From Gemmatimonadota bacterium (lineage in GTDB: Bacteria; Gemmatimonadota; Gemmatimonadetes; Gemmatimonadales; Gemmatimonadaceae), in contig PMEM01000060.1 of NCBI GenBank assembly GCA_003155795.1, positions 1 through 64,000 of the forward strand: a DNA stretch of 64,000 nucleotides, given 5' to 3'. The notes beneath the pieces were generated by a model. That model saw only the letters and a program-made list of their open reading frames with translations. It had not been told where the DNA came from and made no database searches. The translations under genes and the position numbers were made by a program. This document shows, in pieces, positions 4,998 to 9,978 of this stretch (position 1 is its first letter; the number at the start of each line of letters is the position of its first letter).

Positions 4998-5261
4998 ATG
5001 GCAACCACTCGGCCGAAGCAGGTAAATCTGTACGAGGCGAAGAGCCATCTCTCGCAGCTCGTGAGGGAGGCTGCCGCTGGGGCAGAGATCATTATTGCCA
5101 GGGCGGGCGAGCCCGTTGCGCGTCTGGTTCCGCTGGCGGAAGAGGCGAAGCCGATCCGGCGGCCGGGGCGGCTCAAGGGGCAGATATGGATGTCGGATGA
5201 CTTCGATGACCCGCTGCCCCCCGACATTCTCGCGGCCTTCGAAGGCGAGGGCGGAGAATAG
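4998..5261 (+). CDS. Antitoxin, Phd/YefM family
   Basis: An 87-residue protein. The N-terminal DNA-binding fold has the family pattern VNLYEAKSHLSQLVREA, followed by AGAEIIIARAGEPVARLVPL. The C-terminal third is acidic (MSDDFDDPLPPDILAAF) and is the part that would bind and block the VapC toxin. Start is ATG preceded by a strong AGGAGG five bases upstream. Its TAG stop shares one base with the GTG start of the toxin gene. Expected role: neutralise VapC and, with it, repress the promoter at 4,953-4,981. Confidence 0.9.
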   Translation: MATTRPKQVNLYEAKSHLSQLVREAAAGAEIIIARAGEPVARLVPLAEEAKPIRRPGRLKGQIWMSDDFDDPLPPDILAAFEGEGGE

Positions 5262-5641
5262 TGCGGCTGCTCCTGGACACGAACGCACTCCTCTGGTGGG
5301 AAGAAGGATCGGAAAGGCTAGGAGCGCGTACGCGCTCCGCAATTCTTGCATGCGACGCGGTCTACGTGAGTGCGGCTTCGGCTTGGGAAGCTGAGATCAA
5401 GCGCGCGCTTGGCAAACTGGCGTTCGCCGGCGACGTTGATGAAATGATTCGGGCAAATGGCTTCATCGAGCTTCCTGTCGAAGTCAGACATGCGACTGCG
5501 TTGCGGTCGTTGGAATCTCACCATCGCGATCCGTTCGATAGGATGCTGGTTGCGCAGGCGAAGTTCGAGGAGTGCACGCTGGTCACTGCGGACATGAATC
5601 TTGCGCAGTACGGTGTGGATGTACTTGATGCCAGGTTATAG
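5261..5641 (+). CDS. vapC: VapC-family PIN-domain ribonuclease toxin
   Basis: A 126-residue PIN domain of normal length with GTG start. The acidic metal-binding residues are all present: D6 in LLLDTNALLWW, E43 in SAWEAEIK, D90/D93 in DPFDRML, and D111 in VTADMN. PIN toxins cut RNA, commonly tRNA or rRNA; the target here is unknown. It is translationally coupled to the Phd-type antitoxin by a one-base overlap, and the module appears intact. The next gene starts 12 bases later but is metabolic and may simply be read through. Confidence 0.92.
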   Translation: MRLLLDTNALLWWEEGSERLGARTRSAILACDAVYVSAASAWEAEIKRALGKLAFAGDVDEMIRANGFIELPVEVRHATALRSLESHHRDPFDRMLVAQAKFEECTLVTADMNLAQYGVDVLDARL

Positions 5642-8539: not shown

Positions 8540-8830
8540 CTAGCCTCCGCTTATGGCGGCCAGGATGGTGACGGTACTGTCGTTCGGAGTTGGTGTGTCG
8601 AGTCCTTCGGTGTAGCGGGTGTTCTCGTTATCAACGAAAACGTTCACGTGGGGCCGGAGCTCACGCTGCTCAGTCAACACGCTATCGACGACGCGCGGGT
8701 ATTCCTGCGCCATGACGGTGAGTACGTCGCGGACCGATGTGCACCGCTGTTGCGATGTATCGATAGTGATTGTTGCTCGGCCACGGGAATGTGATCTGAG
8801 AGGGGCCGGTATCTCGACAGTGATCGACAC
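8540..8830 (-). CDS. MoaD/ThiS-like ubiquitin-fold protein
   Basis: A 96-residue beta-grasp protein starting at GTG 8,830 (SITVEIPAPLRSH), 14 bases after the stop of the BNR gene, with an AAGG-type ribosome site in the gap. A longer ATG reading to 8,920 would overlap the BNR gene by 76 bases and add a non-family N-terminus. The domain follows the MoaD pattern: VRDVLTVMAQEYP, LRPHVNVFVDNENTRY, then TVTILAAISGG. The terminal GG is the site that is adenylylated and thiocarboxylated in sulfur carriers. No MoaE, MoeB or sulfur-recipient enzyme is encoded nearby. Similar MoaD/BNR pairs are remembered from other bacteria, but their job is not known to me. Confidence 0.8.
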   Translation of the reverse strand: MSITVEIPAPLRSHSRGRATITIDTSQQRCTSVRDVLTVMAQEYPRVVDSVLTEQRELRPHVNVFVDNENTRYTEGLDTPTPNDSTVTILAAISGG

Positions 8831-8844
8831 TGTATTGCCAGCCT

Positions 8845-9978
8845 TCAGCTTGTGTACGCGGGGACTACTGCGCTCTTGACGCACACTATCGACGGCAGGC
8901 CGCCGGCGATCTCCATCCAATTGTCACCGTTGTCAGACGAACCGAACAACTTGCCGCTGCGGGTCCCGAAATACACTCCAGCCGAGTCGAATGAGTCAGC
9001 GGTCAGTGCATCGCGCAGGATGGTTTCGTATGCGTCCTTCTGTGGGAGCCCGTTGGTGAGAGGTTCCCACGACGCGCCAGCGTTGCTGGTGCGGTATACG
9101 CGCAGCTTTGCTTCCGGGACGCAACGGAACTGATCGGATTCGATGGGGATGATGTACACCGTCTCGGGATCGTGCGGATGCATCTGCATCGAGAAGCCAA
9201 AATCGGATGGAACACCGTTGGCGATGTCGGTCCATGAATCGCCCCAATCATCGCTGCGGTAGAGTCCCCAGTGATTCTGCAGGAACAGACGCTCCGGTCG
9301 TGAAGGATGATTCACCACCTTGTGTACACACTGTCCAAATTCCGGGTACTTGTCTGGCAGGAACTGCGCGCGGACGCCAACGTTGCGAGCGCGCCAGCTC
9401 TTACCGCCGTCATCGGTGCGATAGAATCCGGCGCTGGATATGGCGATGCCCATGCGGTTCGAATCGCTCGGGTCGATAACGATCGTGTGGAGACAGAGGC
9501 CACCACCACCGGGTTGCCATTTAGGCCGGTCGGGGTGGTCGTAAAGACCCTGGACGAGGCTCCAGCTCTTACCGATGTCGCGCGATTCAAAAAGCGCGGC
9601 GGGTTCGACTCCGGCATAGATGACGTCCGGTTCAGACTCACGACCGGGGAGAATCTGCCATATCTGAACGAGCGAGGCGTCAAGTCCTTCGGGAAACTTC
9701 ACGTTGTGACTGTCGGGTTCAGTCCAGGTCTTTCCGAAGTCGTCGCTCGAGCGCAGCACGCTGCCCCAGTGGAAGCTGCGTGTTGCTGCAAGTGTGCGAC
9801 GACGGCCGCCGCGCTGATCCACCGCGAGCGCGTAAACAGATTCACCCGGGAAATGTGGTCCGTCAATTCGCCATTCGCGTCGTGACGCGTCGGACCAGAC
9901 GAGAAACGCACCCTTCAGTGTTCCGACCAGCAACACAACTTCGCCCGTTGTGCCTGCGCTCGATGTGGCGGAATTCAT
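8845..9978 (-). CDS. BNR/Asp-box beta-propeller (WD40/YVTN/sialidase-like), no signal peptide
   Basis: A 377-residue protein with repeated Asp-box motifs (S-x-D-x-G-x-T-W): SSDDFGKTW, SRDIGKSW, TDDGGKSW, SDDWGDSW, TSNAGASW and SSDNGDNW. These give a propeller of about six blades. ATG at 9,978 is preferred over GTG 10,011 because CGGAG lies six bases upstream of it. No signal peptide is seen, so it is probably cytoplasmic, unlike the other propellers in the window. The N-terminus (LLVGTLKGAFLVWSD) is typical of this family. The arginine triad of real sialidases was not recognised, so enzymatic activity is unproven. It is co-transcribed with the MoaD-like gene. Confidence 0.85.
   Translation of the reverse strand: MNSATSSAGTTGEVVLLVGTLKGAFLVWSDASRREWRIDGPHFPGESVYALAVDQRGGRRRTLAATRSFHWGSVLRSSDDFGKTWTEPDSHNVKFPEGLDASLVQIWQILPGRESEPDVIYAGVEPAALFESRDIGKSWSLVQGLYDHPDRPKWQPGGGGLCLHTIVIDPSDSNRMGIAISSAGFYRTDDGGKSWRARNVGVRAQFLPDKYPEFGQCVHKVVNHPSRPERLFLQNHWGLYRSDDWGDSWTDIANGVPSDFGFSMQMHPHDPETVYIIPIESDQFRCVPEAKLRVYRTSNAGASWEPLTNGLPQKDAYETILRDALTADSFDSAGVYFGTRSGKLFGSSDNGDNWMEIAGGLPSIVCVKSAVVPAYTS

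Follow-up and report, generated by a model that had tools for sequence, protein, structure and literature searches.

A beta-propeller and a Gly-Gly-ending ubiquitin-like protein encoded as neighbours in several bacterial phyla point to a candidate sulfur-transfer pair

The stretch of DNA analysed here, called the window, comprises 64,000 nucleotides of a Gemmatimonadota bacterium (contig PMEM01000060.1, positions 1 to 64,000). Two genes on its reverse strand encode an Asp-box propeller and, after 14 nt, a ubiquitin-like protein (UBL) with a terminal Gly-Gly, and both open reading frames lie where the initial annotation, made from the sequence alone, had placed this two-gene unit. The features are given below, and their conservation counts refer to a tree set of 116 propellers, of which 85 are paired with a UBL and 31 are solo.

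8845..9978, reverse strand: propeller gene, seven-bladed Asp-box (BNR) beta-propeller of 377 aa; open reading frame with ATG at 9978 and stop at 8847-8845
8831..8844, reverse strand: intergenic gap of 14 nt from the propeller stop to the UBL start
8540..8830, reverse strand: UBL gene, ThiS/MoaD-family ubiquitin-like protein of 96 aa; GTG start at 8830 and stop at 8542-8540
8543..8548, reverse strand: codons of the C-terminal Gly-Gly of the UBL, which ends ...AAISGG
9913..9915, reverse strand: propeller Lys22 codon, in a GT-x-K-G turn; Lys in 85/85 paired propellers and 100/116 overall
9487..9489, reverse strand: propeller His164 codon, at the start of the blade 4 inner strand; 112/116
9322..9324, reverse strand: propeller His219 codon, at the start of the blade 5 inner strand; 116/116
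9271..9273, reverse strand: propeller His236 codon, at the end of the blade 5 second strand; 116/116
9013..9015, reverse strand: propeller Arg322 codon, immediately ahead of the blade 7 inner strand; in at least 95% of the 116, and not among the positions of the face test

No signal peptide is evident by eye on the propeller. The UBL gene is flanked by the propeller gene on one side and by a Peptidase_M1 gene on the other, and neither cysM (judged from the neighbours) nor the JAB gene mec (by profile search) was seen beside the pair. MoaE and MoeB/ThiF, which the initial annotation had reported as missing nearby, have no match anywhere on the window's contig (C23). Its description of a unit without molybdopterin genes holds for that contig and fails for the genome as a whole, which has a MoaD-like gene and MoaE on another contig, C50. 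Elsewhere in the window (4998-5641), two adjacent short open reading frames resemble by eye an antitoxin and PIN toxin pair.

In Pfam, the propeller scores above the cut-off for Sortilin-Vps10 and below the respective cut-offs for several BNR models. It is a 3b7f-type Asp-box propeller by full-length sequence and fold match: the solved structure 3b7f matches it at E 5.5e-79, and its AlphaFold2 model (pLDDT 89.5) aligns by VIA-align to 3b7f, the nearest solved structure, with Z 49.6 and an rmsd of 2.0 over 356 residues at 39% identity. The two proteins belong to the same family over their full length, and 3b7f has an Asp at the position of Cys217 of the window propeller. 3b7f is Reut_B4987, a seven-bladed protein of Ralstonia eutropha, for which the relevant passage of an Asp-box propeller survey gives the function as 'not known' and names no partner (PMC2716378), whereas the window propeller has a UBL neighbour. 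GH74 xyloglucanases and Ycf48/HCF136, which are Asp-box propellers too, come next in the Foldseek list, and GH74 is also next by VIA-align, its rows sharing 13-19% identity with the window propeller. GH74 xyloglucanases and Ycf48/HCF136 are secreted or thylakoid proteins, and we know of no UBL partner for any of them. The F510_1955 glycosylhydrolase model (NF045728) gives 68.2 bits on the propeller, far below its cut-off of 175, so a glycosidase label is without support here. PGAP labels relatives exo-alpha-sialidase; solved sialidases match the propeller only at E ~0.1.

The window UBL matches Pfam ThiS (PF02597) with 28.6 bits, above the cut-off of 22.5, and its best solved-structure matches are 4n6e_B and, in second place, 3dwg_C, which we take to be CysO-type sulfur carriers. 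Its best NCBIfam match is SAMP1 (NF041918), at 52.1 bits and below the cut-off of 60. A genome-wide PF02597 search at E <= 0.001 did not list the window UBL and gave two other sites only, and at E <= 0.01 Pfam ThiS is matched by 11 of the 32 rows of our UBL alignment, leaving 21 unmatched. That alignment finds three UBL sites in the window genome.

The conservation of the pair was followed in 99 genomes, the window's own included, of which 48 carry the propeller at E <= 1e-60. All of the first 30 loci, including that of the window, have a UBL ending in Gly-Gly directly downstream of the propeller, and a UBL with Gly-Gly adjoins the propeller in 45 of the 45 examined among the 48 genomes (the window's and 44 relatives), downstream in 43 and upstream in two. 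Throughout a more distant subfamily (L012-L032), a start codon in a 4-nt overlap with the propeller stop is available in 21/21 loci. Across 84,980 species genomes, a scan gave 582 confirmed loci, and the best 80 of these were analysed, 23 from MAGs and 57 from Streptomyces. The UBL is present in 22 of the 23 MAG loci, with a terminal Gly-Gly in 18 and with residues after it in four; one of the 23 lies on a contig that had been counted before among the relatives. No UBL-profile match was found in any of the 57 Streptomyces stretches among these best 80 of 582. Plasmid records matched in 44 cases, and six of the eight examined have the UBL, five with Gly-Gly. Another 40 stretches of the window's class, selected chiefly because of lower scores or long frames, are divided into 17 paired and 23 not paired; in L220, counted as paired, 895 nt separate the propeller from the UBL start. 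In what appears to be the window's class, sampled from the genome of L059, the propeller is found at E <= 1e-30 in 160 of 294 genomes.

By record titles, among which MAG names can be wrong, the paired loci span seven phylum-level groups: Gemmatimonadota, Acidobacteria, Eisenbacteria, Ignavibacteriales, Verrucomicrobia, Actinomycetota and Pseudomonadota. The UBL comes first in Pseudomonas aeruginosa, Mitsuaria, Cupriavidus metallidurans and Burkholderia multivorans, and also in three Gemmatimonadota loci (L160, L154 and L247). Since both gene orders are seen, the link between propeller and UBL has outlived rearrangement.

The tree of 116 propellers keeps six of the 57 Streptomyces sequences, omits the broken copy L230 and apparently holds the L051/L213 contig twice. 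A script sorted its members into 71 with a downstream UBL ending in Gly-Gly, 7 with an upstream one, 3 with a UBL without terminal Gly-Gly and 35 solo; L159, L220, L048 and L058 were then reassigned by hand from solo to paired after reading. The 31 solos consist of a 22-member Gemmatimonadota clade, Streptomyces, two Rhodobacterales and one Acidobacteria locus. These solos, together with all 57 Streptomyces loci among the best 80 of 582, mean that the link is not obligatory. No natural propeller-UBL fusion occurs among the open reading frames read, and no third gene clearly recurs within 5.5 kb of the pair in 69 loci, where the larger non-UBL clusters are scattered in place and orientation or consist of frames opposite known genes.

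The initial annotation had held that the functional link would be weak if the pair were rarely conserved or the Gly-Gly not kept; the pair proves to be widely kept, and Gly-Gly is retained in 84 of the 85 paired loci of the 116-propeller set and is terminal in 80. Residues follow it in four of these loci: L055 (GGIN), L050 (GGSRR), L058 and L048. The UBL frame of L058 reads on past the Gly-Gly in a 516-aa open reading frame and may contain a frameshift, while that of L048 (L048:7615-9141) runs in frame into an adenine glycosylase gene, through either a fusion or a frameshift. A JAB enzyme might trim such tails; a strong JAB match is present in three of the four genomes with tailed UBLs, but also in two of three comparison genomes. 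In Nonomuraea (L161:5078-5389), the UBL lies beside the propeller, has lost the Gly-Gly and ends LPALA, and this pair is a natural test of what the Gly-Gly is for.

The two faces of the propeller are told apart by the strand order of the model, in which inner-strand starts and second-strand ends make up one face; the positions compared were picked by us from the strands of the model. Mean column entropy over the 116 propellers is 1.25 bits for 49 positions on this face versus 2.02 bits for 44 positions on the other (Mann-Whitney p 3e-5). The conserved face includes the invariant His219 and His236, the nearly invariant His164 and Lys22, which is a Lys in every paired propeller; Arg322 lies just outside the tested set. 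His164, His219, His236 and Lys22 are predicted from the strand positions of the model to form one pocket. The His residues persist in solo propellers; a neighbouring UBL may therefore be dispensable for the core function, and the pocket would serve the propeller's own function. In the 22-member solo clade, Lys22 is replaced by Arg in 13 members and Asp282 by Ser in all 22, and the six Streptomyces solos of the tree retain Lys22. Cys217, considered as a general sulfur acceptor, is ruled out by an Asp at this position in five of the 85 paired propellers.

An E1 gene adjoins the pair in seven of the 85 paired loci and in none of the solo loci, the stretches screened ranging from about 4 to 10 kb on each side. 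It is divergent and upstream of the propeller in L130, L137, L140, L142 and L150, and lies on the same strand downstream of the UBL, in the order propeller-UBL-E1, in L125 and L214. A single event may underlie the five divergent cases, which are therefore counted, with the other two, as two arrangements and not as seven independent events. In all seven stretches, the UBL of the pair is the only one found by our UBL profiles. Within about 3 kb of the propeller, about 0.15 E1-family genes are expected by chance across the 48 genomes and six are seen, the seventh linked locus lying outside this set. Pfam detects a rhodanese domain in the E1s of L142 and L214 and in the window genome's own E1, and a similar rhodanese C-terminal region is visible by eye in those of L125, L137, L140 and L150. 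The remaining 78 pairs have no E1 in the stretch screened. Mycobacterial MoeZR, according to the relevant passage of its description, thiocarboxylates MoaD1, MoaD2 and CysO in E. coli (PMC3227635). A single E1 can thus serve multiple carriers, and this would explain why most pairs need no adjoining E1 of their own.

Strong E1 matches are present in all seven non-Gemmatimonadota genomes tested, and among the 99 genomes a ThiF-family match occurs in 97 and a MoaE match in 96. Both being near-universal, presence alone is uninformative and only adjacency is informative. All 48 propeller-bearing genomes have, by elimination, an E1-family match over the cut-off; the four genomes that have none (G013, G030, G035 and G051) are also without the propeller at E <= 1e-60 and are too few to count. 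The window genome has a single MoaE match, on C50, beside a MoaD-like gene that is not the window UBL, and five ThiF-family matches, on C71, C52 (two), C14 and C22. On C71, another UBL (ThiS) and an E1-rhodanese follow two genes that look by eye like those of a homoserine kinase and a threonine synthase. The E1-like partner that the initial annotation had proposed to look for is thus present beside the pair in seven loci and elsewhere in the window genome.

Two known systems resemble the pair. The cysteine pathway of Mycobacterium tuberculosis, CysO-MoeZ-CysM-Mec+, also uses a ThiS-family carrier ending in Gly-Gly and an E1-rhodanese activator, but the pair has no adjoining cysM or JAB gene and its conserved partner is a beta-propeller. 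In MoaD-MoaE molybdopterin synthase, a beta-grasp carrier with Gly-Gly is likewise encoded beside one dedicated partner; the window genome, however, has a separate MoaD-like gene by its MoaE, and the propeller is a different fold. The carrier is therefore of a known kind, and the propeller is not among the known partners found in our literature search. Within the literature covered, that search found no paper on the pair; supplementary material may list it. The words 'propeller', 'BNR' and 'sialidase' are absent from the main text of the survey of UBL gene neighbourhoods in prokaryotes published by Iyer et al. in 2006 (PMC1779556) and from that of a survey of archaeal UBLs (PMC2948915).

With moderate confidence, we propose that the two genes form one functional unit in which the UBL is an E1-activated thiocarboxylate carrier that serves the propeller. 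A MoeZ-type E1-rhodanese, found beside the pair in some relatives and on C71 here, would adenylate the C-terminal Gly-Gly of the UBL and would then turn it into a thiocarboxylate. The tail of the UBL may dock at the conserved mouth of the central channel of the propeller, where His164, His219, His236, Lys22 and perhaps Arg322 could accept sulfur destined for a small-molecule substrate or, alternatively, handle a product bound to the carrier. The propeller would in either case be the client of the UBL, as an acceptor enzyme or as an enzyme acting on a UBL-bound product. The first of these roles is more doubtful, and we suggest it tentatively: the Asp-box propeller would be the acceptor enzyme of a UBL-dependent sulfur transfer, with the thiocarboxylated tail entering the channel mouth and the sulfur passing either to a substrate or to a metal bound by His164, His219 and His236. 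If this is so, the acceptor would have a fold unlike those of MoaE, ThiG, CysM and the further sulfur acceptors known to us. Modelling of the complex, which the initial annotation had suggested, gave no confident docking: a linked UBL-propeller model of L044 (pTM 0.74) folded both domains well and left the tail undocked, with residues 483-485 under pLDDT 50. Its alignment had three linked rows among 31, and this failure is thus a weak negative.

The initial annotation had suggested that the MoaD-like protein serves the propeller as a sulfur carrier or as a conjugated tag. The link is kept, short of being obligatory as the solos indicate, and the sulfur-carrier half of the suggestion is the better supported, because the linked E1s tested carry rhodanese and a JAB match over the Pfam cut-off is missing from about half of the genomes with the propeller. 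As a protein modifier, the UBL would be activated by the E1 and joined by an isopeptide bond to a lysine of the propeller, with Lys22 as candidate, or to other proteins, the propeller being target or adaptor. The constancy of Lys22 in 85/85 paired propellers and its change to Arg in 13/22 of the large solo clade are consistent with this, as are SAMP1 as the best, though sub-threshold, NCBIfam match and the archaeal UBLs that do both jobs according to the relevant passage of a further source (PMC11323500). We nevertheless consider a modifier unlikely: JAB over the Pfam cut-off is absent in 25 of the 48 propeller-bearing genomes and strong (E under 1e-10) in only 12, the window genome has only one weak JAB match over the cut-off (on C52), the rhodanese marks the linked E1s as the sulfur-loading kind, the 69 loci show no clearly recurrent third gene next to the pair, and the six Streptomyces solos in the tree keep Lys22 as well. 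The same scarcity of JAB fits the propeller as a hydrolase that replaces Mec+, the JAB enzyme of the CysO pathway, and frees an amino acid or thio-compound from its UBL adduct, with a metal held by the three His of the conserved face, all of them invariant or nearly so. The other UBL of the genome, with its MoeZ behind the homoserine kinase and threonine synthase genes, is compatible with such a role. The metal site is putative, however, and paired genomes with JAB also exist, so that we regard the hydrolase as distinctly unlikely.

Two further readings dispense with a carrier function altogether, and both seem to us quite improbable. The UBL might belong to a propeller enzyme as a non-covalently bound subunit or regulator, its Gly-Gly being a relic, which would suit the Nonomuraea pair and the four UBLs with residues after the Gly-Gly; retention of Gly-Gly in 84/85 pairs, terminal in 80, and the adjacency of E1 in seven loci speak against it. 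Alternatively, the neighbours would be linked only historically, the propeller being an ordinary glycosidase-like or structural protein without use for the UBL. The 31/116 solo propellers and all 57 Streptomyces loci among the best 80 of 582 agree with this, but the two gene orders across deep branches, with Gly-Gly kept, and the start-stop overlap available in 21/21 loci of L012-L032 do not.

The findings, read from sequences, point to an undescribed sulfur-transfer pair in bacteria of several phyla. Many bacteria encode several ThiS/MoaD-like proteins, some of them without known use, and such matches number four or five in each of four Streptomyces genomes and three in the window genome. A partner retained in several phyla, with either gene order, would be a defined acceptor candidate for one class of these orphan proteins, and two or three small proteins would suffice for a direct test of what the UBL sulfurates or tags.

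Some minor observations concern other genes and records. The UBL and E1-rhodanese at C71:9431-13287, behind the two genes named above, are perhaps another sulfur-carrier route. At C52:8177-9358, ThiF and JAB matches stand side by side, each in a 461-aa open frame, and possibly belong to one E1-JAB protein. L059 is assigned to Gammaproteobacteria by its record name, which is probably wrong: the sample of its class has contig coordinates resembling those of the window's relatives, and its propeller groups with Gemmatimonadota-type loci. A uracil-DNA glycosylase gene (ung) lies near the solo propeller, on either strand and mostly close, in 54 of the 57 Streptomyces loci (L064-L120) among the best 80 of 582, and an adenine glycosylase gene (PF03352) directly follows the UBL in L159:10890-11528. 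Both ung and the adenine glycosylase, which is found in two loci, look like local synteny.
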